Assembly (NCBI GenBank): GCA_944336335.1
Contig: CALVLC010000033.1
Location: 1-32,575, forward strand
Length of the DNA stretch: 32,575 nucleotides
Origin: an uncultured Bacilli bacterium
GTDB taxonomy: Bacteria; Bacillota_I; Bacilli_A; RFN20; CAG-826
Direction: 5' to 3'
Shown: one piece after another, positions 8,742 to 32,344 of the stretch
Numbering within the stretch: the stretch's first letter is position 1
Layout: each line of letters starts with the position of its first letter
Notes under the pieces: generated by a model
What the model saw: only the letters and a program-made list of their open reading frames with translations
The model's database searches: none
Told to the model about the DNA's origin: nothing
Position numbers and translations under genes: made by a program

Positions 8742-10103
8742 ATGAATACTAGTACACTTACTCAAAACACGGAACTTTGGAAAAATATATTATCGGTCGT
8801 TTCAAAAGAAACTGAGGGGACAGTTTTTGATGCTTTTTTCAGAAACACTAAAATTTTCGACGTGAACGGAAATAAAGTTTTTGTACTTTGTGAAAGCAAA
8901 TTAACAAAAGAAGTCCTTAGAGATCGTTTTTCTGACTATTTATCACAAAAGCTTTATCAATGCACATCTTCAAATTACATTCCAGTTTTTGTTACCGAAG
9001 ATGACGTTAAAGGAAATAAGAAATTTATTGAATCAAACGAAGTTGAACTTTCATACTTTAAAAATTCAGTTTTAGATCCACATTACACGTTTGAAACCTT
9101 CGTTGTCGGACCATGTAACTCTGAAGCTCAAAAAGCTTCATTATATACAGCAACAGCTCCTGGTGGAATTTATCAAACTTTGTTTATTTATGGTGGAAGC
9201 GGACTTGGAAAAACACATCTTTTAAACGCAATTGGTAACTACATAAAAACCAACATGCCAGAGAAAAAAGTTCTTTATTTTTCTAGTCAAGATTTTTTAA
9301 ATGAATATATCGATTTTGTAAATGGAGACACCAGAAAAGAACAACTTTATAAGTTTCTTAAAAGATTTGATGTTTTACTTATCGATGACATCCAAATGCT
9401 TAAAGACAAACGCAAAACTCAAGAATTTTTCTTTAACATTTACGAGGATTTTCGTCAAAATCACAAGCAAATTTGCTTTACAAGCGATAGACTTCCTGGC
9501 GAATTAGAAGGTATCGATCAAAGAATTTTAACTCGTTTTACAAGTGGTTTAAGTGTCTCTGTTTCAAAGCCGGATACCGAAACTTGTTTCAATATTTTAA
9601 AGTCGAAAATCGTCGCTTCTGGAAGCGATTTATCAAATTATGATGAAGATGTTTTGCTCTTCATGGCAGATAAATTCAAAGATTCAATCAGAAGCTTAGA
9701 AGGTGCTTTAATTAGGCTTAATTTTTACGCATCAATCAATAAAGCAACGCACATTGACATAAATCTTTGTGCCGAAGCTTTGCAATCTATGGTTGATGTA
9801 AGTGATGCTAAAAACAAAGTTACAGAACAAAAGATTTTGAGTGTCGTTAGTTCATATTATTCCTTAAGTATTTCTCAGATTACAGGAAAAATCAAAACCG
9901 GAAACATTGTAAACGCTCGTCACATTGCTATTTACTTAATGAGAGACTTGCTTGATCTTCCATTAAAGAAAATTGGAACAATTTTTAGCGGTAGAGATCA
10001 CACAACTATCATGCATTCCATCGAAAAAGTGGACAAATTGTTAAAGACAAATGAGCAAACTCAAACTGCTGTTCGCGAACTAAAAAAGCGATTATCATCG
10101 TAA
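8742..10103 (+). CDS. dnaA: Chromosomal replication initiator protein DnaA
   Basis: 453 residues, all four domains. Domain I (1-90) begins ELWKNILSVVSKE. Domain II is very short. Domain III AAA+ has Walker A GGSGLGKTH (151-159), Walker B VLLIDDIQ (D215, D216), and sensor segments RLPGELEGIDQRILTRFTSG. Domain IV carries the DnaA box reader GRDHTTIMHSIEKV from G417. DnaA-ATP binds the boxes on either side of its own gene and opens the origin. There is no ribosome site before the ATG (AATCAAGCATT). A TATAAA at 8723-8728 would place the transcript start only a few bases before the ATG, so translation may be nearly leaderless. Confidence 0.98.
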   Translation: MNTSTLTQNTELWKNILSVVSKETEGTVFDAFFRNTKIFDVNGNKVFVLCESKLTKEVLRDRFSDYLSQKLYQCTSSNYIPVFVTEDDVKGNKKFIESNEVELSYFKNSVLDPHYTFETFVVGPCNSEAQKASLYTATAPGGIYQTLFIYGGSGLGKTHLLNAIGNYIKTNMPEKKVLYFSSQDFLNEYIDFVNGDTRKEQLYKFLKRFDVLLIDDIQMLKDKRKTQEFFFNIYEDFRQNHKQICFTSDRLPGELEGIDQRILTRFTSGLSVSVSKPDTETCFNILKSKIVASGSDLSNYDEDVLLFMADKFKDSIRSLEGALIRLNFYASINKATHIDINLCAEALQSMVDVSDAKNKVTEQKILSVVSSYYSLSISQITGKIKTGNIVNARHIAIYLMRDLLDLPLKKIGTIFSGRDHTTIMHSIEKVDKLLKTNEQTQTAVRELKKRLSS

Positions 10104-10145
10104 AAATCTGACTTGGTGGATTCACTAAAGTTCAACGAAATATAC

Positions 10146-10185
10146 TTATCCACAGTTTCCACACAGCTTATTATTATTAAATAAA
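10146..10185 (+). other. oriC: Replication origin, basal unwinding region (oriC part 2)
   Basis: Between dnaA and dnaN: perfect DnaA box TTATCCACA (10146-10154), an abutting weaker box GTTTCCACA (10155-10163), a GC-richer CAGC spacer, then four TTA triplets (10168-10179) and AT-rich DNA. This is the layout of the Bacillus basal unwinding system, in which DnaA spreads from two boxes onto DnaA-trios (TTA reads as the trio 3'-AAT on the opposite strand). It is the likely site of initial strand opening. Confidence 0.75.
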
Positions 10186-10203
10186 ATTTAAGAGGTATAT
10201 AAA

Positions 10204-11328
10204 ATGAAATTTAACATTAAACGAAACGATTTTCTCAAAGCCGTTACAACAGCATCAAAATTTATTCCAACAAGTTCTCCTAATCCAATACTTTTAGATG
10301 TCGCTCTTGTTTTAAATGATCAAGGATTAATTCTTTATGGAGGTAATGGAGACGTCTTTTTAGAAGTCACCATTCCTTTTGTAATCAACGATAAAGAAAT
10401 TATTCGTGATTATAAACAAGGTTCAATTTTAATAAATGCAAAAATTTTAAACGAAATTGTTAAAGCTATTGATGGAGAAGAAATTTCTTTTGAAATCGTA
10501 GAGGAGGGTTTAGCGAAACTTGAAAATGACAGTAATACTAAATATTCCTTAACTGTTACAAGATTTGAAGAATATCCAGATTGTAATTTTGAGGAAAATG
10601 GAACAAAAATTGTTTTAGGCTCTAAAGAATTCCAAGAAGCTGTTAACCAAGTATCTTTTGCTGCATCACAAAAGAACACACGTCAACAATTAAAAGCTGT
10701 TAATTTTGAAAATAACGGAACAAGCCTTATTTTTACTGCAACAGATGGTTCAAGACTTGCTAAAAAAGAGCTCCCAAGCAGTTGCTCTAATTTATTTTCA
10801 ATCAACATTGACGCAAAAACACTCATGGAAGCGGCTAGAACGATTGAAAACGAGAAAGAGGTTGAAATATATGCAACCGATAAAAAAGTACTCTTTAAAT
10901 ACGCTAATACTAAAATTATTAGCAATTTAATTGGTGGCGATTATCCAAACGTTAAAAATATTGTTCCAAAAACTTATTACTATTTCTTAGAAGTTAACGC
11001 TAATGATTTCTTAAACGCTATCAATAGTGTTGCCATGCTTACACTCGATAGAGAAAACATCGTTAAAGTTACAATGGTTGAAGGAAACGTTATCGTTTCA
11101 TCTAAATCTCAACTTTCAGGAAGCGGCGAAAAGATTTTAAGTCTTTTCAGATATTCTGGTGAAAGATTAGAAATCAGTTTCAACTATCACTTTGTAGTAG
11201 ACGCAATTAAAGCTCTTGGATCACAAGATGTTCTGTTATCTTTTGTTGGTGAAATGAAGCCATTTACAATCACTGATAAAAACGATCCAAGTAATATTCA
11301 CTTAATAACGCCTGTAAGAACGTACTAG
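10204..11328 (+). CDS. dnaN: DNA polymerase III beta subunit (sliding clamp)
   Basis: 374 residues, the usual length for a three-domain beta clamp. The N-terminus MKFNIKRNDFLKAVTTASKFIP and the C-terminal MKPFTITD...HLITPVRTY are characteristic. The dimeric ring tethers DNA polymerase III to DNA. The ribosome site is a modest AGAGG (10191-10195), 8 bases before the ATG. It lies 100 bases after dnaA across the unwinding region, so it may be read from the dnaA promoter or from one hidden in that gap. It ends at a hairpin terminator. Confidence 0.97.
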   Translation: MKFNIKRNDFLKAVTTASKFIPTSSPNPILLDVALVLNDQGLILYGGNGDVFLEVTIPFVINDKEIIRDYKQGSILINAKILNEIVKAIDGEEISFEIVEEGLAKLENDSNTKYSLTVTRFEEYPDCNFEENGTKIVLGSKEFQEAVNQVSFAASQKNTRQQLKAVNFENNGTSLIFTATDGSRLAKKELPSSCSNLFSINIDAKTLMEAARTIENEKEVEIYATDKKVLFKYANTKIISNLIGGDYPNVKNIVPKTYYYFLEVNANDFLNAINSVAMLTLDRENIVKVTMVEGNVIVSSKSQLSGSGEKILSLFRYSGERLEISFNYHFVVDAIKALGSQDVLLSFVGEMKPFTITDKNDPSNIHLITPVRTY

Positions 11329-11349
11329 AGCACTAAAATTTTAAACATC

Positions 11350-11377
11350 GACTACCTATACCAAGGTAGTCTTTTTT
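11350..11377 (+). terminator. Intrinsic terminator after dnaN
   Basis: An 8-bp stem GACTACCT / AGGTAGTC (11350-11357, 11364-11371) with a 6-base loop is followed by TTTTTTCTTT. It separates dnaAN from the yaaA-recF-gyrBA unit, although read-through is possible. Confidence 0.82.
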
Positions 11378-11387
11378 CTTTAAAATA

Positions 11388-11419
11388 GACTTCCTTTAAT
11401 ATATAATATTAAAGGAGTC
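11388..11419 (+). promoter_or_regulatory. Hairpin burying the yaaA ribosome-binding site
   Basis: Arms CCTTTAATAT and ATATTAAAGG (11393-11402, 11406-11415) close an ATA loop. T-A at 11392/11416 and, across one bulged T, GAC/GTC (11388-11390, 11417-11419) extend the stem. The ribosome site AAAGGAG (11411-11417) lies entirely in the 3' arm, 6 bases before the yaaA ATG. As RNA it should limit translation unless melted or bound. As DNA it could also be an operator, and a TATAAT (11402-11407) sits inside it. Confidence 0.6.
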
Positions 11420-11423
11420 GGAA

Positions 11424-11648
11424 ATGAATAAATTTAAAGAAGTAAAGATAACTAGCGAGTACATAACTCTTGGACAATTTCTCAAATTTGCAGATGTAAT
11501 CTCGAATGGTGGAGAAGCAAAAGAATTTATTAACGAACACAATATTTTCGTTAACGGAACTATTTGTAAAATGAGAGGTAAAAAACTCTATCCTGCTGAT
11601 CAAGTTATCATTGAAGATTCTTTGTTCTTTGAAATTGGTAAATGTTAG
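11424..11648 (+). CDS. yaaA: S4-domain RNA-binding protein YaaA
   Basis: 74 residues, a lone S4 RNA-binding domain: ITLGQFLKFADVISNGGEAKEFI, then NIFVNGTICKMRGKKLYPADQVII. The gene sits between dnaN and recF as in most Bacilli. The substrate RNA is not established for the family; related YlxM/RlbA-type S4 proteins act at ribosomes. It overlaps recF by 7 bases, so recF translation is probably coupled to it. Its own ribosome site is inside a strong hairpin. Confidence 0.9.
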   Translation: MNKFKEVKITSEYITLGQFLKFADVISNGGEAKEFINEHNIFVNGTICKMRGKKLYPADQVIIEDSLFFEIGKC

Positions 11649-12706
11649 TTAGAGAACTCGAATTACATAATTTTCGTAATTACGAATCGCTAAAAGCTAA
11701 CTTTAAAGAAGGCCTGAATTATATCTATGGAGAGAATGCATGTGGTAAAACAAACATTCTTGAGGCGATATATTTTTTGTCTTTAACGAGGTCGTTTAGG
11801 ACCAACGATTTAGTTGAGTTGATTAAAAAAGACGCGGATTTTGCAAGGATTTTGGCAAAAATTAGTGATGAAAACTCAATAAAAATACTTGAAATTACTT
11901 TTAGTGAAAAAGGTAAAAAAATACTTTTAAATAATAAAAAAGTTTCTAAAATCAGCGAATTAAATTCTTTGATTAACGTTATTAGTTTTATTCCTAGAAA
12001 CACAAATTTATTAAAAGATTCACCTAAAGAAAGACGAAAATTTTTAAATATTTATTTGTCAAAATTATCTAATAAGTATTTAAAAACTTTATCGATTTAC
12101 GAAAAGATTTTAAAAGAGAGAAACGATGCTTTTAAAGCTTATAAAATCAACTATACATTAATCGATATCTTAACTAATCAACTTGTTGAACTAAATAAAG
12201 AAATTTTTCTTTATCGTAAAAAGTTTATAGCTCATATTAATGATTTTTTATCCGATGTTTATAAAAACGTCTCAATAAAAGAAGAAAAACTAATAATGAA
12301 ATATGAAAGCTTTATAAATGTCGAAGGCACTATTGAAAAATTTATTAAAGAAGAATTTCAAAAAGTAAGAGAAGAAGAACTTAAGAAAAAGCAAACTCTT
12401 ATCGGAGTTCATAAAGATGATTTTAAATTATTTCTTGATGATAGAGATGTCGGATTATACGGCTCACAAGGTGAAAATAGAATCTCTGTAATTTCTCTAA
12501 TATTATCACTTTATTTTTTAAATAAAGATCAACAACCAATTATCGTGCTTGATGATGTCTTAAGTGAATTAGATGAAAAGCACGAAGAAAATTTGCTGAA
12601 ATATCTTGAAAATTTTTCCCAAATTTTCATAACAAACACTGCAAAAAGCCAGTTTTTTAATAAAAACTACTATCGTTTAGAAGATAAAAAACTAAAGGAG
12701 GAATAA
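11642..12706 (+). CDS. recF: DNA replication and repair protein RecF
   Basis: 354 residues, SMC/ABC-type ATPase that helps load RecA at gaps with RecO and RecR. Walker A GENACGKTN (30-38), N-terminal signature VRELELHNFRNYESL, the ABC signature region YGSQGENRI, and Walker B with D-loop IIVLDDVLSELDEKH are all present. It overlaps yaaA. The last codons (KLKEE) encode the gyrB ribosome site AAGGAGG, so recF and gyrB are in one transcript. Length is slightly below the usual 360-370. Confidence 0.96.
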   Translation: MLVRELELHNFRNYESLKANFKEGLNYIYGENACGKTNILEAIYFLSLTRSFRTNDLVELIKKDADFARILAKISDENSIKILEITFSEKGKKILLNNKKVSKISELNSLINVISFIPRNTNLLKDSPKERRKFLNIYLSKLSNKYLKTLSIYEKILKERNDAFKAYKINYTLIDILTNQLVELNKEIFLYRKKFIAHINDFLSDVYKNVSIKEEKLIMKYESFINVEGTIEKFIKEEFQKVREEELKKKQTLIGVHKDDFKLFLDDRDVGLYGSQGENRISVISLILSLYFLNKDQQPIIVLDDVLSELDEKHEENLLKYLENFSQIFITNTAKSQFFNKNYYRLEDKKLKEE

Positions 12707-12708
12707 GA

Positions 12709-14826
12709 ATGGAAGAAAAGAAAGAACAAGAAAAAGAGATTGTTGAAACCGAAAATTCAGAAGAAACAACGAATGAAAAAATCGATGTAAACGAAGGTTT
12801 TGATGATCAAGAAGAAAGTATTGATTCAAAAATTTCTAGTGAAATTATTGATATCAACGATGAGAGAGCGCTTGAAAAAGGGGACGAAAAATATAACAGT
12901 GATTCCATTCAAGTTTTAGAAGGTCTTGAAGCAGTTAGAAAAAGACCAGGTATGTACATCGGCTCAACTTCTTCAACAGGTCTTCATCATTTAGTTTGGG
13001 AGATTGTTGATAATGGTATCGATGAAGCCTTGGCTGGTTATTGTGATACTATTAGTGTTGATATTAACCCTGATAACACAATTACAGTCACAGATAATGG
13101 AAGAGGTATTCCAGTTGATGTAGTTGGAAAAACAAAATTAAGCGGTGTCGAAACTGTTTATACTGTTTTACATGCTGGTGGTAAATTCGGACAAGGAAGC
13201 GTTTATAAAGTTAGTGGTGGTCTCCATGGTGTTGGTGCATCCGTTGTTAACGCACTTTCTTCATGGCTTGAAGTTACAGTTAAAAAAGATGGCGGAGTTT
13301 ATTATATTCGCTTTGAAAATGGTGGACACACCGTTGAACCATTAAAAAGAATTGGAGACTGTTCTTTAGAAGAACACGGAACAAAAGTTACTTTTAAACC
13401 TGATCCAACAATTTTTAAAGAAACAACTATTTATAGCTACGAAACAATTAAAAATAGATTAAGACAAATGGCTTTCTTAAACAAAGGAGTAACAATTGTA
13501 CTTCGTGATTTAAGAATGGATCCTATTTTAGAAGATAAATTTCATTTTGAAGGCGGAATTAAGGAATATGTTTCTTATGTAAACCGTAATGGCGAAGCAT
13601 TATTCCCTAATGTTTTTTATTCAGAAGGTGCTCAAATTTTTGATGATAACGGTACAAAAGAGACTATTTATTGTGAAATTGCTCTTCAATATACAAAAAG
13701 TTATACCCACAACGTTTATTCTTTCTGTAACAACGTTTCTACTGGAAACGGTGGTATGCACGTTGATGGTTTTAATTTAGCTTTAGTAAGAGTCATCAAC
13801 AATTACGCCAGAGACAACAAAATTTTAAAAGATAGTGATAAAGAAAGAATCACTTTAGAAGATTGTCTTGAAGGTTTGACAGCTATTATTTCTGTTAAGC
13901 ACCCTAACCCACAATATGAAGGTCAAACAAAAGGAAAACTCGGAAACCTCGAAGTCAAAAAGATTGTAAATACTGTTTTTGGCGACCAACTTCAAAGATA
14001 TTTATTAGAAAATAAAGATGTCGCAATGACAATCGCTAAAAAAGTAAAGAGTGCTTATGATGGCCGTTTAGCAGCCCGTGCGGCTAAAGAAAACATGAGA
14101 AGAAAAGATGTTCTTGAACCAACAACTCTTCCTGGAAAATTAGCCGATTGTAGCTCAAATAATCCTGAAGAATGTGAATTATTTATCGTTGAGGGTAATT
14201 CTGCAGGTGGTAGTGCAAAACAAGGTAGAGATCCAAAAACTCAAGCTATTATGCCTTTAAGAGGTAAGATTTTAAATGTTCAAAAAGCCCAAGCTCATCG
14301 TATTTTTGAAAACGCTGAAATCGGAAATATGATAAATGCGATTGGTGCAGGATATGGCGAAGAATTCGATATTACAAAAATTAGATATCATAAAATTGTA
14401 ATCATGACCGATGCTGATGTTGATGGTTCTCATATTAGAATTTTGCTTTTAACATTCTTCCATAGATTTATGAAGCCTTTGATTGAACATGGCTGTGTTT
14501 ATATTGCGCAACCTCCTTTATATAAAGTTGAATATAAAGGAAAAGCATATTATGCATATAACGATGAACAACTTAATGTTATTCGTAAAGAATTAGCTTT
14601 AAAACCTGGTTATCCATACCAAAGATATAAAGGTCTTGGCGAAATGGATCCATCTCAACTCGAAGAAACGACTATGGATCCAAAAGTTAGAAAAATGCTA
14701 CGAGTAACAGTCGACGATGCTGTTGCTGCAGACCAAGTATTTAACGATTTGATGGGTGAAGATGTTGAACCACGTTCAACCTTCATTGAAGAAAACGCTA
14801 AATTCGTTAAGAATCTTGATATTTAA
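12709..14826 (+). CDS. gyrB: DNA gyrase subunit B with acidic N-terminal extension
   Basis: 705 residues against about 640 for typical GyrB. The extra length is at the N-terminus: residues 1-60 contain 24 Asp/Glu and only 7 Lys/Arg, before the normal start-like sequence YNSDSIQVLEGLEAVRKRPGMYIG. The GHKL ATPase follows (EIVDNGIDEALAGY, TDNGRGIPV, GGLHGVG), then the transducer and Toprim (EGNSAGGSAKQGR, PLRGKILNVQKA, MTDADVDGSHI). AAGGAGG at 12695-12701, 7 bases before the ATG, supports the long form. In the Toprim motif N497 replaces the usual Asp (E. coli D426), a position in the quinolone pocket. Confidence 0.97.
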   Translation: MEEKKEQEKEIVETENSEETTNEKIDVNEGFDDQEESIDSKISSEIIDINDERALEKGDEKYNSDSIQVLEGLEAVRKRPGMYIGSTSSTGLHHLVWEIVDNGIDEALAGYCDTISVDINPDNTITVTDNGRGIPVDVVGKTKLSGVETVYTVLHAGGKFGQGSVYKVSGGLHGVGASVVNALSSWLEVTVKKDGGVYYIRFENGGHTVEPLKRIGDCSLEEHGTKVTFKPDPTIFKETTIYSYETIKNRLRQMAFLNKGVTIVLRDLRMDPILEDKFHFEGGIKEYVSYVNRNGEALFPNVFYSEGAQIFDDNGTKETIYCEIALQYTKSYTHNVYSFCNNVSTGNGGMHVDGFNLALVRVINNYARDNKILKDSDKERITLEDCLEGLTAIISVKHPNPQYEGQTKGKLGNLEVKKIVNTVFGDQLQRYLLENKDVAMTIAKKVKSAYDGRLAARAAKENMRRKDVLEPTTLPGKLADCSSNNPEECELFIVEGNSAGGSAKQGRDPKTQAIMPLRGKILNVQKAQAHRIFENAEIGNMINAIGAGYGEEFDITKIRYHKIVIMTDADVDGSHIRILLLTFFHRFMKPLIEHGCVYIAQPPLYKVEYKGKAYYAYNDEQLNVIRKELALKPGYPYQRYKGLGEMDPSQLEETTMDPKVRKMLRVTVDDAVAADQVFNDLMGEDVEPRSTFIEENAKFVKNLDI

Positions 14827-14844
14827 AAAATATGAGGTATTTGC

Positions 14845-17451
14845 ATGGAAAACGAAGAAAAGAAGACAGAAATTTCTGAAAATACAAACGAAAAAGAAGA
14901 AGAAATTAGAGAAGAAAACGCTCAACTTGAAGCTGGAATTGTACCTTCTTTAACAAACACCGAAATCGTTACTCAAGTTCAAGATTCTTTCTTGGATTAT
15001 GCAATGAGCGTTATTGTATCAAGAGCTCTTCCTGATGTTCGTGATGGTTTAAAGCCAGTTCATAGAAGAGTAATTTATGCAATGTATGATGCTGGTTATA
15101 CACCAAGTAAACCATTCGTTAAATCAGCAAAAATCGTTGGTGAAGTTATGGGTAAATATCACCCACACGGCGATAGTGCGATTTATCAAACTTTAGTCCG
15201 TCTTGCTCAACCATTCTCAATGAGATATTGCCTTGCAACAGGTCATGGTAACTTCGGTTCAATGGATGGCGATGAAGCTGCTGCTCCACGTTATACTGAA
15301 GCAAGAATGTCTAAAATCTCTTTAGAACTTGTTAAAGATATTAATTACAACACAGTTGATTTCGCTCCTAACTATGATGGTAGTTTAGAAGAGCCAACTG
15401 TTTTACCTGCTAGATTCCCAAATTTACTCGTAAACGGAAGTGATGGAATTGCTGTTGGTATGGCTACAAAAATGCCACCACACAACTTAAACGAAATCTG
15501 CGAAGGTATTAAATTTGTAGCACATAATCCAGAATGCACTATTGAAGAATTAATGAAAATTGTTAAAGCACCAGACTTTCCAACTGGTGGCATTATTTAT
15601 GGATTAGGCGGTGTTAGAGATGCATATTTAACTGGTAGAGGAACTTTTAGGTTAAGAGGCAAAACCGAAATTATTGAAAATCCTAACGGAAAATCAAAAA
15701 TTATCATTACTGAAATTCCTTACCAAGTTAATAAATCTACTTTAGTCGCTAAAATTGGCGAACTTGCTAGAGAAAAAGTTATTGATGGTATTACCTCAGT
15801 TAAAGATTTTTCAAAAACCGACGTTAGAATTGAAATCGAAACTAGAAGAGATGTTGTACCACAAGTTATTCTTAATCAATTATTTAAAAATACACAACTT
15901 GAAATTAGCTATGGAATCATCAACCTTTGTATTTTAAATGGTGTCCCTAGAGTTTTAGGTTTAAAAGAGTTAATTAATCAATACATCAATTTCCAAATTG
16001 AAATTGTTGAAAGAAGAACAAAATTCTTAAAAGCAAAAGATGAAGCTAGACAACATATTATTGAAGCTTTAATTAGAGTCCATGATTTATTAGATGTTAG
16101 TAAATTAGGCGGTAAAGAAAGTAGAGATGAATTTATCGATCTTGCAACTTCTTCACCAAACCAAGCAGTCTTAACTCAAAGACTCATGGAAAGATATGGA
16201 TTCTCTCAAGTTCAAGCTGAAGCTGTTGTTGCAATGACAATTGGTAGATTAACAGGTCTTGAAACACAAAAACTTCATGATGAATATGATGAATTAGCTA
16301 AAAATATTGAAAGATATATTTATATTCTTGAATCAAGAGAACATATGCTTGAAGTTGTTTTAAGCGAACTTGATGAAATTAAAGATAAATTCGGCGACGA
16401 AAGAAAGACACAAGTTTCAACCGCAATTTCTTCAATCGATGATGAAGATTTGATTCCAGAAGAAGACATCGTTATCACTTTAACAAATAAAGGATACATA
16501 AAACGTATGTCGACATCAGAATTTAAACTTCAAAATAGAGGCGGAACAGGTGTAAAAGGAATGAGTGTTTATAACGACGATGAAGTTATGATTGTTTTAT
16601 CATCAAAAACTCATACAGACATCTTATTCTTCACTAACCTTGGTCGAGTTTACAGAAAAAGAGGACATGAAATTCCTGAATTTAGTAGAACAGGCAAAGG
16701 TATCCCAGTCCTTAACTTATTAAATCTTGATAAAGAAGAAAAAGTTGTTGCTTTGATTAGTGCTGATGAATACGAAAATCACTATTTATTCTTTGCAACC
16801 GAACAAGGTATTGTTAAGAGAACAGATTTAAGTGAATTTAAACGTATTAATTGTAATGGTAAAAACGCTATTTCCTTTAAAGAAGGCGATAACTTATTAG
16901 ATGTTAGAGTCACAAATGGCTCAGCAAAAATCCTTCTTGCAAGCAACGATGGAAAACTTTGCATGTTTAATGAAGAAGACGTTAGAGCAATGGGAAGAAA
17001 TGCTGCTGGCGTTAGAGGCATGAAATTAAATAATGAAGATCGACTTATTGGTCTTTCTACTGATCAAACTGGTCACTTAGTATTTGCGCTTAGTGAAAAT
17101 GGTCTTGGTAAGCTTTCCGAAATTGACGATTATAGATTAACCAATAGAGGCGCAGGTGGCGTTATCACAATCAAGATTACTGAAAAAACCGGTAAACTCA
17201 TTGGCATGAAAGTTATTGAAGGAAACGAAGATTATCTTGTTATGACTAATAACGGTCAAGTTATTAGATCTCCAATTTCTCAAGTTAGACTCTGCGGTAG
17301 AAATTCTTCTGGTGTTAAAATTATCAATCTTAAAGAAGGTGAAAAAGTTTCAAGCTTTACGATTTTGCCTCATGAAGAACGTGTAGAAGAAAACACTGAA
17401 GCAAGCGAAGTAAAACCAGAAAGTGCAGAAATTGTACCACAAGCAGAATAA
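14845..17451 (+). CDS. gyrA: DNA gyrase subunit A
   Basis: 868 residues. About 30 extra, mostly acidic residues precede the standard QVQDSFLDYAMSVIVSRALPDVRDGLKPVHRR. The breakage-reunion domain has the catalytic Tyr in AAAPRYTEARM. The helix-4 region reads HPHGDSAIYQTLVRLAQPF: Ser is present at the E. coli S83 position (S111), but Q115 stands where most bacteria have Asp or Glu (E. coli D87). The C-terminal beta-pinwheel carries the GyrA box as QNRGGTGVKGM, which favours gyrase over topoisomerase IV ParC. An acidic tail closes the protein. GAGG (14834-14837) precedes the ATG by 7 bases. It follows gyrB by 18 bases. Confidence 0.97.
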   Translation: MENEEKKTEISENTNEKEEEIREENAQLEAGIVPSLTNTEIVTQVQDSFLDYAMSVIVSRALPDVRDGLKPVHRRVIYAMYDAGYTPSKPFVKSAKIVGEVMGKYHPHGDSAIYQTLVRLAQPFSMRYCLATGHGNFGSMDGDEAAAPRYTEARMSKISLELVKDINYNTVDFAPNYDGSLEEPTVLPARFPNLLVNGSDGIAVGMATKMPPHNLNEICEGIKFVAHNPECTIEELMKIVKAPDFPTGGIIYGLGGVRDAYLTGRGTFRLRGKTEIIENPNGKSKIIITEIPYQVNKSTLVAKIGELAREKVIDGITSVKDFSKTDVRIEIETRRDVVPQVILNQLFKNTQLEISYGIINLCILNGVPRVLGLKELINQYINFQIEIVERRTKFLKAKDEARQHIIEALIRVHDLLDVSKLGGKESRDEFIDLATSSPNQAVLTQRLMERYGFSQVQAEAVVAMTIGRLTGLETQKLHDEYDELAKNIERYIYILESREHMLEVVLSELDEIKDKFGDERKTQVSTAISSIDDEDLIPEEDIVITLTNKGYIKRMSTSEFKLQNRGGTGVKGMSVYNDDEVMIVLSSKTHTDILFFTNLGRVYRKRGHEIPEFSRTGKGIPVLNLLNLDKEEKVVALISADEYENHYLFFATEQGIVKRTDLSEFKRINCNGKNAISFKEGDNLLDVRVTNGSAKILLASNDGKLCMFNEEDVRAMGRNAAGVRGMKLNNEDRLIGLSTDQTGHLVFALSENGLGKLSEIDDYRLTNRGAGGVITIKITEKTGKLIGMKVIEGNEDYLVMTNNGQVIRSPISQVRLCGRNSSGVKIINLKEGEKVSSFTILPHEERVEENTEASEVKPESAEIVPQAE

Positions 17452-23518: not shown

Positions 23519-25987
23519 ATGGAAAGCAGAGGGGAGTATAACTTTTTACCAAGTTATTTTAAAACAGGGCTTAGTAGTGGAGAGATTTCAAAATTAACTC
23601 TTGAAGGGAGAGTTAACAAAATCAAAAAGTCTAAAAGTAGCAGTTATTTAAAGATAATAGCTAAAAATTTATTTACGTTTTTCAATTTTCTTTTATTTTC
23701 AATTGCAATAATTTTAGCCATCTTTAATCAATGGTCTAACATGGTGTTTATGGTCGTTGTTTCGGCTAATTTAGTACTCGGCTTGATTCAAGATTTTAGA
23801 GCAAAAAGGATCGTTGATAAATTATCTCTTAAAAATAAATCACAATATTCTGTAATTCGTAATAGCAAAGAAGAAAAACTTTATGATGAAGAGTTGGTCC
23901 TAGGCGACATTGTTATTCTTAGATCAAGTGATATGGTCCCTTGTGATTCCAGAGTTTTAACTGGTTCGTGCTATGTTAATGAATCAATCTTAACAGGCGA
24001 AAGTGACAAGTCCAAAAAAGTTGCTAATGATGAATTATTAAGTGGAACTTACTTAACAAGCGGCGAGGTTTATGTTGTTATCGAAAAAGTTGGCGAAGAT
24101 AATTATATAAACACATTAAGCGCAAAGAGTAAGGAATTTAAAGCACCAAAATCAAAATTATTCTTGCAAATCAACAACATTTTTAAGTTTTTAGGAATTA
24201 TTGTTGCTGTCTTAGGAATACTCCAAATATTAGTTATTTCCTTTACTAACTCAAATATTATAAATTCCGATCAAGTTACTTATGAATTAATCGGAACCAT
24301 TATCATCGCTCCAATTTGTGGCGCTTTGATTTCAATGATTCCTTCCGGAATGTATCTTTTGTTTTCAACAACTTTAGTTGCTGGAGTCCTTGTTTTATCA
24401 AGGAAAAATGTTTTAGTTCATGACATGTATTCTTTAGACATGTTAGCTAGAGCAGATGTTTTGTGTATTGATAAAACAGGCACGATCACGACTGGAAATA
24501 TGTTTGTAAATAATGTTATTAAACTTGATGGTTCACCATTTAATGAAAATGAACTTCAAGTTATTTTAAGTAATATTAACAGAGCTGTTAATGACTTTAA
24601 CACCACAGCAGTTGCTCTTAAAAATTATTTCGGAACAAAAGATAATTTTAAAGTTAAACAAATTGTTCACTTTGATTCATCTTATAAATATAGTGGTGCA
24701 ACTTTTGAGGAAGTAGGAACTGTTATTATTGGCGCTTATGGTTTCATTAAATGTGTAAATGATAACGATGAAATAAAAAGTAAAATTGAAGAACTTTCTA
24801 ATAAAGGCGAGCGTGTATTAATGATTGCTCATTCTAAAAATGATATTAATGATGAAAAAGTTCCTGAAGATTTAAAATTTATTGGAATTATTGTCATTGA
24901 AGATGAAATCAAAAAAGACGCTCAAGAAGTTTTAAATTGGTTCAAGCGTAACGATGTAAAAATTAAAATTTTAAGTGGCGACAACGAACTTACTGTTAAA
25001 AATATCGCTTTAAAAGTAAATCTTGAAGGCGCTGATAAAAGTATTAGTTTAACCGGAAAAGAAGACGAGTTTATTGAAAACAACGTTGAAAATTACGATG
25101 TTTACGGAAGAGTTTCTCCTGAACAAAAAAGAGTTATTGTTGAAGCGTTAAGAAAAAACGGTCATACAGTAGCTATGTTTGGCGATGGTGTAAACGATAT
25201 TCTTGCTTTCAAATCAGCCGATGTTTCTATTTCAGTTGCTAACGGAGCAAACGCAGCAAAAGATTTAGCCAATTTAATTTTAACTGATAATAACTTTAAT
25301 GGTTTACCAAGCATTGTCGCTCAAGGAAGACGCGTTATCAACAATCTTCAAAGAACCTGCTCTCTATTCTTAGTTAAAACAGCATTTTCAATGCTTCTTA
25401 ATACGTTCTTCTTAATATTTGGATTATGTACAGGTTTAACTTGGCCATTCTCACCAGGTTCATTCTACGCTTGGGAATTATGTTCAATCGGAATTGCAAG
25501 TTTCTTGTTAGCACTAGAACCAAACAGCGAAAGAATAAAAGGCAACTTTATAAAGAATATTATGGTGAATGCTTTACCTCCAGGAATTTTACTCTCTGTA
25601 ACAATTGCTATTTTTTATAGTGTTGCTCACTTTAGTGGGATTTCTCAAACATACGGATTTACAGAAGACACCTTAAGATCTATCGCTACTTGGTACATAT
25701 CTATAGCTGCTTTATTTGTTCTAATTGAAGTTTGCTTACCAGTAAATAAATATAGATTTTTCGTTTTAGCAGTAGCATCTGTCTTGATTTTTGTCATCTT
25801 TATTTGGACAATATTTGGTACAAACTGGCTAGTATTAGAGGGCGACGCACCAAGAATTTTATCTCTCCCAGCTTTAAGTGTATTGTTAGTTATGGTTTCT
25901 GTAACGCTTTCAATACTGATTATTATTTGGGTGATTAAACATTTTATAAAAGTGAAAAATATTAAAAAAGAAATGAACGTAAGATGA
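23519..25987 (+). CDS. P-type ATPase, cation-transporting type
   Basis: 822 residues. The actuator-domain loop is LTGESDK (TGES 159-162), the phosphorylated Asp is D318 in DKTGTITTGNM, and the hinge is GDGVNDILAFKSADVS (555 onward). Helices M1-M2 (about 46-92), M3-M4 (about 217-292) and six C-terminal helices (about 620-815) give P2/CtpE-like topology. The M4 ion-site motif is PSGM (275-278) where Ca2+ pumps have PEGL, so the carboxylate ligand is missing. No N-terminal metal-binding CxxC is seen, which argues against heavy-metal P1B pumps. The start directly follows the ABC stop, and AAGGAG (23506-23511) is inside the ABC coding end. The ion is not predictable. Confidence 0.9.
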   Translation: MESRGEYNFLPSYFKTGLSSGEISKLTLEGRVNKIKKSKSSSYLKIIAKNLFTFFNFLLFSIAIILAIFNQWSNMVFMVVVSANLVLGLIQDFRAKRIVDKLSLKNKSQYSVIRNSKEEKLYDEELVLGDIVILRSSDMVPCDSRVLTGSCYVNESILTGESDKSKKVANDELLSGTYLTSGEVYVVIEKVGEDNYINTLSAKSKEFKAPKSKLFLQINNIFKFLGIIVAVLGILQILVISFTNSNIINSDQVTYELIGTIIIAPICGALISMIPSGMYLLFSTTLVAGVLVLSRKNVLVHDMYSLDMLARADVLCIDKTGTITTGNMFVNNVIKLDGSPFNENELQVILSNINRAVNDFNTTAVALKNYFGTKDNFKVKQIVHFDSSYKYSGATFEEVGTVIIGAYGFIKCVNDNDEIKSKIEELSNKGERVLMIAHSKNDINDEKVPEDLKFIGIIVIEDEIKKDAQEVLNWFKRNDVKIKILSGDNELTVKNIALKVNLEGADKSISLTGKEDEFIENNVENYDVYGRVSPEQKRVIVEALRKNGHTVAMFGDGVNDILAFKSADVSISVANGANAAKDLANLILTDNNFNGLPSIVAQGRRVINNLQRTCSLFLVKTAFSMLLNTFFLIFGLCTGLTWPFSPGSFYAWELCSIGIASFLLALEPNSERIKGNFIKNIMVNALPPGILLSVTIAIFYSVAHFSGISQTYGFTEDTLRSIATWYISIAALFVLIEVCLPVNKYRFFVLAVASVLIFVIFIWTIFGTNWLVLEGDAPRILSLPALSVLLVMVSVTLSILIIIWVIKHFIKVKNIKKEMNVR

Positions 25988-26520
25988 AAAACGTTGAAAA
26001 AGAAATCAAAAATAAGTTCTTATCATTACTTAACACAAGAAGAATCGATGAGATAGATGTTCAATTAATCGCAAGTGAACTTAAAATAACAAGGCAAACA
26101 TTTTATTATCATTATAAAAATATATATGATCTTGTTTATTCTATTATCATCGATGAACAGTTAGAACCTTTTACTGGTGAAACTTTAGAAGAAGTTGGAT
26201 CTAATCTATTGAATTTATTTTTTAGCAAAGAAGAATTTTATAAAGAGATTCTGGATTCATCGGCCAGAGAAATTTTAGAAGATATGACTTATTCATATTT
26301 CTATAAATCTTTAAATTTATATTTAAAAAGTGATCAAAGATTAAGTATTGATGCTAGGAAAGACGTATCTTCTTTTATTAGTTACGGCCTAAGTAATTAT
26401 TTTCTAACTTATTTTAATTATGATAATTATGCAAAAGAAGATATAAAAGAAAAGTTAAAATGCTTTTTAAATGAAGAAAGTATTAAATCTATAGTTGAAG
26501 GATATTTAAATAACATTTAA
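25984..26520 (+). CDS. TetR/AcrR-like transcriptional regulator
   Basis: 178 residues. The N-terminal HTH reads VQLIASELKITRQTFYYHYKNIYDLVYSI, the hallmark of TetR proteins. The C-terminal two thirds is helical and unlike any ligand domain I recognise. The ATG overlaps the P-type ATPase stop (ATGA), so it is translated with the pump and probably regulates the unit, as local TetR repressors usually do. The palindrome at 20640-20654 is the nearest candidate binding site. DhaS-type activators share this HTH form and cannot be excluded. Confidence 0.85.
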   Translation: MKNVEKEIKNKFLSLLNTRRIDEIDVQLIASELKITRQTFYYHYKNIYDLVYSIIIDEQLEPFTGETLEEVGSNLLNLFFSKEEFYKEILDSSAREILEDMTYSYFYKSLNLYLKSDQRLSIDARKDVSSFISYGLSNYFLTYFNYDNYAKEDIKEKLKCFLNEESIKSIVEGYLNNI

Positions 26521-26594
26521 AATTATGAAAGTAATTAAAGTTTTTCATTGCCTTCAATTATCACACGTTAGCTGGATAAGCTAGGAGGAAACAA

Positions 26595-27845
26595 ATGAGA
26601 AAAGAAGACTTAATTAGTGATTTAATATATTTACTAATGGCAGGCATCGTATTGCTTGTTGGGTTTTTAGTCGTTCAACCAGCAATTAATGATGGTTTAT
26701 TAGGAAGTAATACCGGCGAAAACGTTTTATTTATTTTAGTAGCTTTAATTGTTGGTATTGTAATAAACGTTATCTTGATGGAGCTTGGACATTTATTAGG
26801 TGCTTTAATAGGTGGCTATAAAATTTTATCTTTCAACGTTTTAGGTTTAAATTTTTATAAGGATTTTAGTGAAAACTCTGCAAAAGGCAAATTAAAATTC
26901 AGATTTAAAGGATTTAATGGATTAACAGGTGAAACAATAATTGAACCAAAAAGAGAAAAAGCTAATCCAATGTTCTATGTATTTTTCCCACTTATTTTAT
27001 TCTTATTGGAATTTGTCGTAATGTATTTTGTTATCACTTTGGTTCCGGGCGATAGCAACACACATTTCGATCCAGAACAAATTGTAAAATTTGGTTTAAT
27101 TATCTCAACAACAATTGCTGGATGTATTGTTTTATATGATTATTTCCCTGCTAAGTTAGATACATTAAACGACGGTTATCGTTTAATTTCTTTAAAAAAC
27201 AAAATTAACATTGAAGCTTATAATGAAAAATTAAAATTAGAAGCTAACGAATATAAAGGAATTAAAAATACTGAATTCAAAGTTTTCGAAGAGATTACAG
27301 ATTTTACAGCAAAAGTTAATCTTGAAACAGCTTTAAAGAAATTTAACGATGGTAACTTTGATGAAGCTATTCAAATTATTGATTCTTGTTTAGCAAAACC
27401 AGAAAAAGTTTCTACTTCAACAAAAAGATCTCTTTTGTTAAATAAAGTCTTTATTACTTACATTTCTAAAGGTAAAGAAGAAGGCTCCAAACTTTATAAA
27501 GAGCTCGATGAAGAAACTAGAGAAATTGTTAAAAGATGTAAAACTTTAGATTCAATCAAAGTTTATTCTCTTTTTATCGCTTATGATCAAAAAAGTAAGA
27601 GTGAAGTTAAATACGCAATTAATAGAGCAAGAAAATTATATGACCATTTAACGGTTGGAGAAGTTGAAAAAGAAGTTGCATTATTCTCAACAATAATCAA
27701 AAACATATTAGATTTTGATAGCGAGTTGATAGATAGCGAAATTATAAAAGACGCATGTAACAGTAAAACAGATTCTAAAGCTTATAAAGACTTGATTGAT
27801 TATCAATTAAATCTAAGTAAAAAAGAAGAAGTTAAAGAAGAATAA
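26595..27845 (+). CDS. Membrane protein with degenerate M50 (site-2 protease-like) core and helical C-terminal domain
   Basis: 416 residues. Predicted helices are at about 9-31, 43-62, 128-152 and 163-184, followed by a soluble C-terminal half of about 220 residues. LMELGHLLGALIGGYKILSF (61-80) matches the helix that carries HExxH in M50 proteases, but the first His is Met (M62 E63 L G H66). The second half-site appears as LDTLNDGYRLISL, with N192-D193-G194 like the N..DG motif. The C-terminal part (FNDGNFDEAIQIIDSCLA and similar) looks like TPR helical hairpins. AGGAGG (26583-26588) sits 6 bases before the ATG. It is a single gene with its own terminator. The role is unknown; it is probably not an active zinc protease. 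Confidence 0.7.
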   Translation: MRKEDLISDLIYLLMAGIVLLVGFLVVQPAINDGLLGSNTGENVLFILVALIVGIVINVILMELGHLLGALIGGYKILSFNVLGLNFYKDFSENSAKGKLKFRFKGFNGLTGETIIEPKREKANPMFYVFFPLILFLLEFVVMYFVITLVPGDSNTHFDPEQIVKFGLIISTTIAGCIVLYDYFPAKLDTLNDGYRLISLKNKINIEAYNEKLKLEANEYKGIKNTEFKVFEEITDFTAKVNLETALKKFNDGNFDEAIQIIDSCLAKPEKVSTSTKRSLLLNKVFITYISKGKEEGSKLYKELDEETREIVKRCKTLDSIKVYSLFIAYDQKSKSEVKYAINRARKLYDHLTVGEVEKEVALFSTIIKNILDFDSELIDSEIIKDACNSKTDSKAYKDLIDYQLNLSKKEEVKEE

Positions 27846-27848
27846 AAG

Positions 27849-27881
27849 AAAAAAGCTGAGGATAGTTACTCAGCTTTTTTA
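27849..27881. terminator. Bidirectional terminator between the M50-like gene and mscL
   Basis: Stem AAAAAGCTGAG / CTCAGCTTTTTT (27850-27860, 27869-27880) with an 8-base loop and A/T runs on both sides. The mscL stop codon lies in the loop and its last three sense codons form one arm on the minus strand. Confidence 0.88.
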
Positions 27882-29628: not shown

Positions 29629-30948
29629 TTATTCAGCAGAAACTTTAAGATTTTTAAATGCAATCGAAGGAACCGTAAATGAAGAAAGAAGTAGCTCACT
29701 ATCATTTCCAACAGCAATAATATTGTTAAATAAATCGAATAAGTTACCGCTTAATGTAAATAAAGTAATTGGACTACCTTTCTTACCATCAACAACGTGG
29801 AATCCTTCAGCTTGTAAAGAGAAATCGCCACTTGTTGGATTTAATCCAGCATGTAAACCGTTGATTTCAGTAACATAAATTCCATTACCAATCTTTTTAA
29901 ATAATTCTTCTTTTGAGAGTCTTCCTGGTTTAATGACTATATTGCTAAATGAAATAGACATTTTGCTTCCACTTCTTGATGCGTTTCCGGTTGATTCAAC
30001 ACCATCTTTTTTAGCTGTAACTAAGTTATAGAAATAAGTTTTTAAAACACCTTTATCAAAAATGACTTTGTCTTGTGTTGGAACGCCTTCATCATCAAAG
30101 TAAGAGAAGAAAAGATTTTTTAAATGTGGTTTTTCGTAAACAGTAAGTTTATCGCTTAAAACTTTTTGATTTAATTTACCTTCAAGTTTTGATGAATGTT
30201 TTTGAACTTCTTCACTAGAAACGTGAGAAAGAAGTGCAGAGAGTAAAGAGGAAACACATTCTTTATCAATTACAGCTTTATATTTACCAACTTTAATTGA
30301 TTCAGCGTGTAATTTTTCTAAACCTTTTTCAACAATATCATTACAGAACGCATCAATATCAATTTTGTCTTGATCAGTATTAAAGAAAATTTTTCCATTA
30401 GTTTTAATTTCTTCACCATCTTTAACAACAATCGAAGCGTAAATTAAGAAATAATTTGATTTATCTTTAAGTTTTAAACCATAAGAGTTTGTGAAAATTC
30501 TTTCTGAATCTGTATCTTGATATTCAACTTCAACATCAGTGATTCTTTGGTCTGCAGCTTTTAATTTATCTTCAATTTTATGACATATTGCTAATTTGTC
30601 TTCGACAGACCATTCAGTTAATTTTTTAGAGTAAAGATTTCTTTTTTGATATTTTTCAGCACCTTTAAAAATAATTGGTTCATCTTCTGATTCGCTTAAA
30701 GTTGCGGTTTCTTTAATAGCATCAACCAAAAACGGGAAATTTGAATTATCGTCTTTTTCTGTAGAGCCAAAACCAATTTTATCTTTATAAATTCCTCTAG
30801 CGCTAATTCTTGTTGAAGAATCAACCGAATAAGAAACTAACTCATTTTTAAATAAAGAAAAAGAAAATGAGGTTGATTTTGTAGAACTCAATTCACTTGC
30901 TGAAATTTCATTTTTTGATGTAGTTTCGAAAAATTTACTAGAATTCAT
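29629..30948 (-). CDS. tldE: TldE/PmbA, metalloprotease-complex subunit
   Basis: 439 residues from ATG 30948. The open frame reaches back to 31056 inside tldD, but AGGAGG (about 30957-30962) points to this ATG (MNSSKFFE). TldE pairs with TldD to form a protease that clips unfolded peptides; in E. coli it matures microcin B17 and degrades CcdA. The C-terminal half has the conserved GVPTQDKVIFDKGVLKTYFYNLVTAKK, GNASR and NGLHAGLNPTSGDFSLQAEGF. TldE has no HExxxH itself, as normal. It overlaps the tldD stop by 11 bases, indicating coupled synthesis of the heterodimer. Confidence 0.93.
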   Translation of the reverse strand: MNSSKFFETTSKNEISASELSSTKSTSFSFSLFKNELVSYSVDSSTRISARGIYKDKIGFGSTEKDDNSNFPFLVDAIKETATLSESEDEPIIFKGAEKYQKRNLYSKKLTEWSVEDKLAICHKIEDKLKAADQRITDVEVEYQDTDSERIFTNSYGLKLKDKSNYFLIYASIVVKDGEEIKTNGKIFFNTDQDKIDIDAFCNDIVEKGLEKLHAESIKVGKYKAVIDKECVSSLLSALLSHVSSEEVQKHSSKLEGKLNQKVLSDKLTVYEKPHLKNLFFSYFDDEGVPTQDKVIFDKGVLKTYFYNLVTAKKDGVESTGNASRSGSKMSISFSNIVIKPGRLSKEELFKKIGNGIYVTEINGLHAGLNPTSGDFSLQAEGFHVVDGKKGSPITLFTLSGNLFDLFNNIIAVGNDSELLLSSFTVPSIAFKNLKVSAE

Positions 30949-32344
30949 TGATTGATCCTCCTCTTCCGCCAACAACAATTTCGTCGACTCTGATAGTTGG
31001 TTGGCCGACATTAACTGGAACGTTTCCACTAACGGAACCACACATACCTTGTCCAAAAGCTAAATTATTACCAACCATGTCAATGTGCTTGAGAATATCT
31101 CTAGCATTGCCAATTAAAGTAGCACCACGGACTGGTTCAGTAATTTTTCCATCTTTAACAATATATGCTTCTGAACAACCAAAGTTGAATTCTCCAGTAG
31201 CAGGGTTAACTGAACCACCACTAAATGAAACAGCAAAAATTCCTAGTTTTGTAGCTTTAATAATTTCTTCTTCGGTATATTTTCCTGGAGCAATATATGT
31301 GTTGCTCATTCTGGATGTTGGTTCAAATTTATAAGATTGTCTACGAGAAGCACCATTTCCTGGTTCGTTCATTTTTCTTCCATTAAACGAATCAACTAAA
31401 TAGCCAGTTAGGATTCCATCTTTGATGAGTTCGTTTTTTTGAGGAATGTTTCCTTCATCATCAAGATTATTTGAGCCCCATTCATTTGGAATGGAACCAT
31501 CATCATATGCACTAACACAAGTGTTAGCAATTTGTTGACCTTTCATATTTGAAAAAACAGATAAGCCTTTTGCAACAGAAGTGGCTTCGAGCTGGTGTCC
31601 ACAAGCTTCATGGAAAATAACTCCGCCCCATCCATTTCCAATAATGACAGGGAATTTACCACTTGGACATTCTTTAGCTTGTAACATTAAGATTACTTTT
31701 TCAGCATTATTTTTTGCGATAGCTTCAATGTCGATATCTGTTGTAAAGAATTCCCGACCGCCTTGAGCGCCTGGCCCATCAAATCTCGTTTCGATTTTTC
31801 CGTTTTCACTGGCAACAGATTGAATAGCCATACGACCATATTCTTTACGATCTACCCAGTGCTTACCAGTTGAGTTAAAAATTTCAATTTCAGATTTTGT
31901 GAGTGCAAACGAAGTGATTGCACGAACAATTCTTTTATCATAATTTAAGACGATAGAATCAGCTTTTTTTAATAAAGAAATGATTTCTGCAGGGTTTATT
32001 GTAGAAATAGGTGTACTTTTCTTGTGAATTGATTTGATTTTGATATCTTTGAAATTTTCAAGTTCAGGCAATTCTCTATTCCCATCAAAGGATTTAGATA
32101 ATGTTGTTGCTAAAGCAATCAACCCTTTTTTAGATTTATCACTAGTTGATCCATAGACGCTTCTTGTACCTTTTAAAAGTCTTAATCCGATACCGCTTGT
32201 TGCAGAAACTGTGGTCGCGTCAACTTTCATGTTTTCTACTACATAGCTTTTACGAATAGTATCTTCGTTAAAAATTTCAACAAAGTCAGCGCCAGTAGAA
32301 GCAGCTATATTTATAACTTCGCGTGCTAAGCTTTTATTAAGCAT
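30938..32344 (-). CDS. tldD: TldD, catalytic zinc metalloprotease subunit
   Basis: 468 residues. The zinc motif HExxxH appears as HEACGH (H245, E246, H250) in GWGGVIFHEACGHQLEATS. Other family blocks are DDEGNIPQKNELIKDGILTGYLVDSFNGRKM, RRQSYKFEPTSRMSNTYI, and the C-terminal GNNLAFGQGMCGSVSGNVPVNVGQPTIRV. GGAGG (32354-32358) lies 9 bases before the ATG. A possible promoter is TTGCTA-16-TAAAAT on the minus strand (32396-32369). It forms an operon with tldE; no peptide precursor gene is seen between or beside them, so housekeeping peptide turnover is the simplest role. Confidence 0.95.
   Translation of the reverse strand: MLNKSLAREVINIAASTGADFVEIFNEDTIRKSYVVENMKVDATTVSATSGIGLRLLKGTRSVYGSTSDKSKKGLIALATTLSKSFDGNRELPELENFKDIKIKSIHKKSTPISTINPAEIISLLKKADSIVLNYDKRIVRAITSFALTKSEIEIFNSTGKHWVDRKEYGRMAIQSVASENGKIETRFDGPGAQGGREFFTTDIDIEAIAKNNAEKVILMLQAKECPSGKFPVIIGNGWGGVIFHEACGHQLEATSVAKGLSVFSNMKGQQIANTCVSAYDDGSIPNEWGSNNLDDEGNIPQKNELIKDGILTGYLVDSFNGRKMNEPGNGASRRQSYKFEPTSRMSNTYIAPGKYTEEEIIKATKLGIFAVSFSGGSVNPATGEFNFGCSEAYIVKDGKITEPVRGATLIGNARDILKHIDMVGNNLAFGQGMCGSVSGNVPVNVGQPTIRVDEIVVGGRGGSINEF

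Follow-up and report, generated by a model that had tools for sequence, protein, structure and literature searches.

A probable non-cutting M50 (site-2 protease) homologue with an altered, conserved membrane pocket in an uncultured Bacilli bacterium

The window (the whole stretch of DNA analysed, 32,575 nucleotides) contains at positions 26595-27845 of the plus strand an open reading frame that begins with ATG and encodes a protein of 416 aa. This M50-like gene starts 74 bases behind the gene of a TetR-type regulator, which overlaps a P-type ATPase gene, and ends shortly before a hairpin. Coordinates of these genes and of the elements of the encoded protein are as follows.

23519..25987, plus strand: P-type ATPase gene, with a 4-base overlap with the TetR gene
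25984..26520, plus strand: gene of a DhaS-like TetR-type regulator
26583..26589, plus strand: ribosome-binding-site-like AGGAGGA, with the ATG 5 bases on (from sequence)
26595..27845, plus strand: coding sequence of a protein with a predicted M50 (site-2 protease) fold membrane half and a TPR-like cytosolic half
26601..26690, plus strand: helix 3-32, first membrane helix, before the M50 core (model)
26712..26810, plus strand: helix 40-72 bearing M62-E-L-G-H66, counterpart of the HExxH helix (model)
26778..26792, plus strand: M62 E63 L64 G65 H66 motif (from sequence)
26817..26948, plus strand: beta strands 75-118, corresponding to the membrane-reentrant beta loop (model)
26931-26933, plus strand: E113, in beta strands 75-118
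27159..27161, plus strand: D189
27168..27176, plus strand: N192-D193-G194, with D193 as counterpart of the third zinc ligand (from sequence)
27201..27839, plus strand: helices 203-415, TPR-like superhelix, predicted to be cytosolic (model)
27849..27880, no strand given: terminator-like hairpin between the M50-like gene and the convergent mscL

The sequence-only reading had described a functional gene with its own ribosome site and terminator. AGGAGGA and the hairpin are indeed present and the results below support a gene under selection, but a transcription unit of its own is doubtful with the TetR gene only 74 bases upstream. The terminator scan assigned the hairpin to the minus strand; since T6 trails the GC core on the plus strand as well, it probably serves both the M50-like gene and mscL. 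Promoter-like sites were not found above chance (13 found, 14.3 expected). The gene is single copy, as the window protein matched only itself in its own genome, which also disposed of an intact HExxH copy elsewhere in that genome; a search of the same genome with PF02163 yielded two other M50 genes with frames of 534 aa and 240 aa.

Of 70 loci from f1, the family to which the window belongs, 67 carry a TetR gene from the same cluster as the window's regulator, mostly directly upstream or one Fe-ADH gene away. P-type ATPase genes occurred in at least 59/70 f1 loci and at least 12/20 loci of f3 and f5, two families of the same order as f1, with 29 loci having flanks of about 1.5 kb. The P-type ATPase cluster mixes two kinds, one upstream, as in the window, and one downstream that is close to Ca or Mg pumps. 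A PF04227 (Indigoidine_A) family gene, which we take to encode a pseudouridine-5'-phosphate glycosidase, lies upstream in 30/70 f1 loci (L068:1340-2254 and similar), often between the P-type ATPase and TetR genes, and two overlapping PmbA/TldD metallopeptidase genes on the minus strand of the window (29629-32344) belong to a cluster found in 21/70 f1 loci. dnaA, dnaN, gyrB, and gyrA follow one another in one direction at 8742-17451, and the window thus likely adjoins the replication origin. Given the proximity of these genes, conserved order is weak evidence of shared function and may be mere synteny. Intact relatives of the M50-like protein (see below) have different gene neighbours.

The M62-E63-L64-G65-H66 motif sits on a membrane helix, with N192-D193-G194 downstream. 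A whole-protein AlphaFold2 model based on a 90-sequence alignment (mean pLDDT 94.6, pTM 0.88) has four membrane-length helices (residues 3-32, 40-72, 125-149, and 160-182) and an all-helical C-terminal half (203-415), which we take as the TPR-like cytosolic half proposed by the sequence-only reading. The loop charge count gave 10 Lys and Arg residues in the beta loop versus none in the two outer loops, which should place the TPR-like half and the end of the protein with the pocket on the cytosolic side. The membrane half was also modelled apart from 108 sequences, including 18 intact relatives (pLDDT 95.0), and structure comparison of this model with VIA-align returned M50 chains in all of rows 1-7 (Z 9.2-6.7, rmsd 3.5-4.4 over 126-143 residues). 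These were 7w6z (Z 9.2, rmsd 3.6 over 138), 9j82 (8.3), 7w6x (8.2), 9a6w (8.0), 8vjm, which is SpoIVFB (7.4), 9j83 (7.2), and 3b4r (6.7, rmsd 3.7 over 129), followed by an unrelated row at 5.7. VIA-align Z values under 8 can reflect a common arrangement, from which seven M50 chains in the first seven rows would be hard to obtain. The M50 chains align with the window protein only from residue 39-46 onward. As modelled, the membrane half thus has the S2P core fold, and the M50 assignment made from the letters alone withstood structure prediction. Foldseek alone gave no significant match for the membrane half, its first row being an RseP (E 1.5), and no M50 protein was among the matches when solved structures were searched by sequence. 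Top rows of the whole-protein structure search were TPR and other helical-repeat proteins. For the C-terminal half, the best VIA-align rows were Rap and LapB at Z of about 10, which is within the chance range for helical repeats; a Rap or quorum-sensing reading of this half was not taken up on that ground. Weak TPR Pfam matches occurred in up to 7/90 group members.

Relatives at E up to 1e-3 were present in 141/193 related genomes, namely in 107/116 genomes of f1, which is more than chance, and in 34 from f3 and f5; none was listed at this threshold for families f2, f4, f6, f7, and f8. Profile searches, which added relatives outside the order, gave matches in 76/395 genomes of the class and in 111/392 genomes of the phylum, many of the latter short and weak. 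HExxH was kept in 34/34 relatives from outside the group (loci L154-L173 and L260-L279), which come from other families of the class, as the sequence-only reading had allowed for other members of the fold. They form a nearer branch, in which both His, the Glu, and the later Asp are invariant in 19 sequences and GGxxxN is present in 18/19, and a farther branch with HExxH in 15/15 sequences passing the profile cut-off. Five loci of the farther branch (L267, L271, L275, L276, and L278) had no ORF at E 1e-3, hence 15/20 entered. Left out before counting were L031 and L032 (duplicates of L007 and L003), L173, L166 (a 570-aa frame that takes in a second protein), and L172 (a disrupted frame). The long frame of the intact relative at L166:2897-4609 may be a genuine fusion or result from a frame error, and at L160:3797-6039 one genome has two adjoining intact HECGH copies of the family.

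All 19 of the nearer intact relatives match PF02163 (best E 1.3e-11, with hits counted at E up to 1). A profile built from them finds canonical M50 proteins from relatives of the window at E 1.5e-9. A profile of 90 lost-His sequences matches the 19 intact relatives at E 5e-34 over 358 columns and both halves, and matches canonical M50 at E 8e-6 with M62 aligned on the zinc His. This full-length match indicates that the window protein and the HExxH proteases sharing its layout go back to a common ancestor. PF02163 itself detects 9/90 group members at E up to 1, the best with 24.0 bits versus a cut-off of 27.2, and no Pfam or NCBIfam model scored over its cut-off for the window protein. This last result is what would be expected of an unrelated four-helix membrane protein with ExGH and NDG by chance, a reading that the full-length profile match to HExxH relatives and the M50 fold matches make extremely improbable. 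Chance resemblance to M50 was ruled out by that profile match together with the seven M50 structure rows. The intact profile gave second or short weak matches in some genomes of the order, and a candidate intact orthologue was rejected for those compared by place (G002, G116), which fall in canonical M50 genes. Searching plasmids with an intact relative gave two partial, unannotated Enterococcus matches.

Loss of the HExxH motif, read at the outset from a single sequence, extends to the entire group. Of 114 f1 sequences, 112 reach the motif (L202 and L226 are without the motif region), and none of them has His at position 62; the same is true of 40 further f1 sequences from the order-wide search, which had not been used to find the pattern. 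A recent point change, with HELGH kept in close homologues, is thereby excluded. Residues at position 62 in f1 (n = 112) are Phe (38), Leu (27), Tyr (15), Val (10), Ile (10), Met (7), Ala (2), and Asn, Thr, and Glu (1 each). Met is thus neither a conserved replacement nor, at 7/112, a selected residue. HExxH is likewise found in 0/34 f3/f5 sequences, which have Tyr (32), His (1), or Asn (1) at position 62; the sole sequence with His62 has Asn63 and Lys66. A tree was calculated from 80 of the 182 aligned sequences after eight pocket columns had been taken out. One of its branches (SH-aLRT 93, not starred) separates off the lost-His sequences, and no more than one change is needed, so that a single ancient His loss at the base of the group would explain the tree. 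Close pairs have dN/dS of 0.02-0.12 (25/41 pairs computed). From the single change on the tree and the low dN/dS we conclude that the gene is old, inherited, and under selection.

Profile alignment to HExxH makes position 62 the counterpart of H22 in RseP. According to an excerpt of PMC10024687, RseP holds its zinc through H22, H26, and D402, and the H22F variant neither binds zinc nor is active. The same His to Phe substitution is present in 38/112 f1 relatives and is the commonest state at position 62, which makes canonical zinc catalysis by the window protein very unlikely, as judged by analogy. An LDG-like motif with the Asp that serves as third zinc ligand is present (D193 in 109/113 f1, with Asn in the other 4, 33/34 f3/f5, and 34/34 intact sequences), and the G-x-x-x-N (GPxxN-like) motif is absent: the window protein has F136, and Asn at this position occurs in 4/113 f1 versus 18/19 nearer intact sequences, the farther intact branch having Thr or Ser (15/15). 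Because it has neither the defining HExxH nor GxxxN, we do not file the protein as an M50 peptidase; we read it as a non-canonical M50 homologue that is probably not a protease. By sequence comparison the group shares its descent with the intact proteases and has lost the motif throughout the clade, the marks of an M50-derived pseudoprotease.

A simply dead site, as the missing His might suggest, does not fit the conservation around it, as E63, H66, and D189 are near-fixed while position 62 is free. When the 369 f1 columns are ranked by entropy, all three fall within the lowest 8 and position 62 comes at about 237th. Conserved f1 residues are E63 (111/112), H66 (111/112), E113 (105/112), Y181 and P185 (113/113 each), and D189 (112/113, once Glu), and the 40 further sequences have H66 in 40, E63 in 37, E113 in 39, an acid at 189 in 40, and D193 in 39. 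The three of these without E63 have Glu at position 62, the place of the lost His, and Gly at 63. All three, and the D193N cases, fall by genome label in genus g23 of f1 (L303, L314, L319, L086, L207, L210, L211, and L298), where the pocket is changed further: either Glu has shifted by one position to 62, or D193N is accompanied by a return of Asn at 136. In f3/f5 (n = 34), H66 is present in 1, Lys/Arg66 in 33, and D189 in 29. Position 189 is acidic in 113/113 and 40/40 f1 sequences and Asp in 4/19 nearer intact relatives, and position 113 is Gln in 16/19 of the latter. The G-E-T strand of E113 matches, in an alignment by eye, GGQC of the intact relatives and GGYV of RseP, which we take to be the motif of the substrate-binding edge strand. 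Fixation of E113 and D189 in f1, neither conserved in intact relatives, points to a pocket that was rebuilt rather than decayed. This strong constraint on the pocket despite the loss of His is the main new point.

E63 and H66 in 111/112 sequences exceed what a mere scaffold would need, and a metal-dependent or even catalytic role is therefore possible. The f1 protein might hold a divalent metal by H66 and D193 with D189, E63/E62, or E113 and act as an intramembrane metal sensor or hydrolase, with lysine 66 replacing the metal in f3/f5. Four acids (E63, E113, D189, and D193) and one His would be an awkward charge in a membrane pocket of f1 without a cation; where H66 is lost it becomes Lys or Arg (33/34 f3/f5, 1/112 f1), E113 is absent in 32/34 of these Lys/Arg66 sequences, and Glu takes the zinc His place with Gly63 in 3/40 further sequences. 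However, D193N occurs in four f1 sequences of one genus and in 1/40 further ones, E113 is replaced by Gln, Ser, Asp, or Ala in 7/112, and the contrast of f1 with f3/f5 is one phylogenetic split, not many events; such a re-wired metal site, conceived from sequence patterns, seems rather unlikely to us. E63, H66, D189, and D193 might also only brace helices by hydrogen bonds and salt bridges, with function residing in the TPR-like half. The f3/f5 proteins, kept with Y62, K/R66, and D193, show a metal-free salt-bridge pattern of this kind, and the profile comparison shows the TPR-like half conserved along with the membrane half. We hold this to be distinctly improbable, as conservation in f1 is strongest in the membrane half and not in the TPR-like half: of 369 columns, the 15 that vary least are all within residues 1-210.

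We lean towards an ancient, single-copy M50 homologue that acts as a non-cutting membrane binding or sensing protein with a changed pocket and a TPR-like half. An HExxH protease that already bore a TPR-like cytosolic half would have come down to the group ancestor, in which both the first zinc His and the GGxxxN Asn were lost, once; acids would have become fixed, D189 in most members of f1, f3, and f5 and E113 in f1. The canonical zinc site of His, His, and Asp could not form in the absence of His62, and the usual substrate cleavage would not take place. The pocket and edge strand may serve as the binding site of a ligand, perhaps a cation or a transmembrane helix, and the TPR-like half may relay its binding to a partner in the cytosol. 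The TetR regulator and P-type ATPase encoded nearby are candidate partners only.

The window protein resembles M50/site-2 proteases (RseP, RasP, SpoIVFB, MjS2P; PF02163) in the predicted core of HExxH-type helix, beta loop, and two further helices, in the third-ligand Asp in an (L/N)DG setting, and in the NxxP turn (D182-P185). Unlike them, it is without the first zinc His and the GGxxxN Asn, has D189 and E113 added, and has no visible PDZ domain and a TPR-like C-terminal half. Rhomboid-fold pseudoproteases are well studied; site-2-fold pseudoproteases are hardly studied, with one plant case, EGY3, and no bacterial M50 pseudoprotease found in the open-licence PMC papers searched. EGY3 is not known to have a TPR half. 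An excerpt of PMC10978774 describes it as a chloroplast S2P without HExxH that has a role without proteolysis, and it is like the window protein in being an S2P homologue without this motif yet with a biological role and unlike it in being a plant chloroplast protein. iRhoms are, according to an excerpt of PMC3149277, rhomboid pseudoproteases in which an intramembrane protease fold was kept after loss of catalysis and used in regulation; they differ from the window protein in being eukaryotic and of a serine protease fold of another family. Closest in layout are the intact HExxH relatives, with about 340-460 aa, the same element order, and, in the nearer branch, a match over the full length; they differ in keeping HExxH (34/34) and, in the nearer branch, Gln113 (16/19) and Asn136 (18/19). 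One bacterial class holds the full series of an intact protease, a protein that has given up one zinc His and acquired acids, and one with lysine for the other His. This series opens to testing how a zinc enzyme of the membrane is converted and whether carboxylates can rebuild a zinc site.
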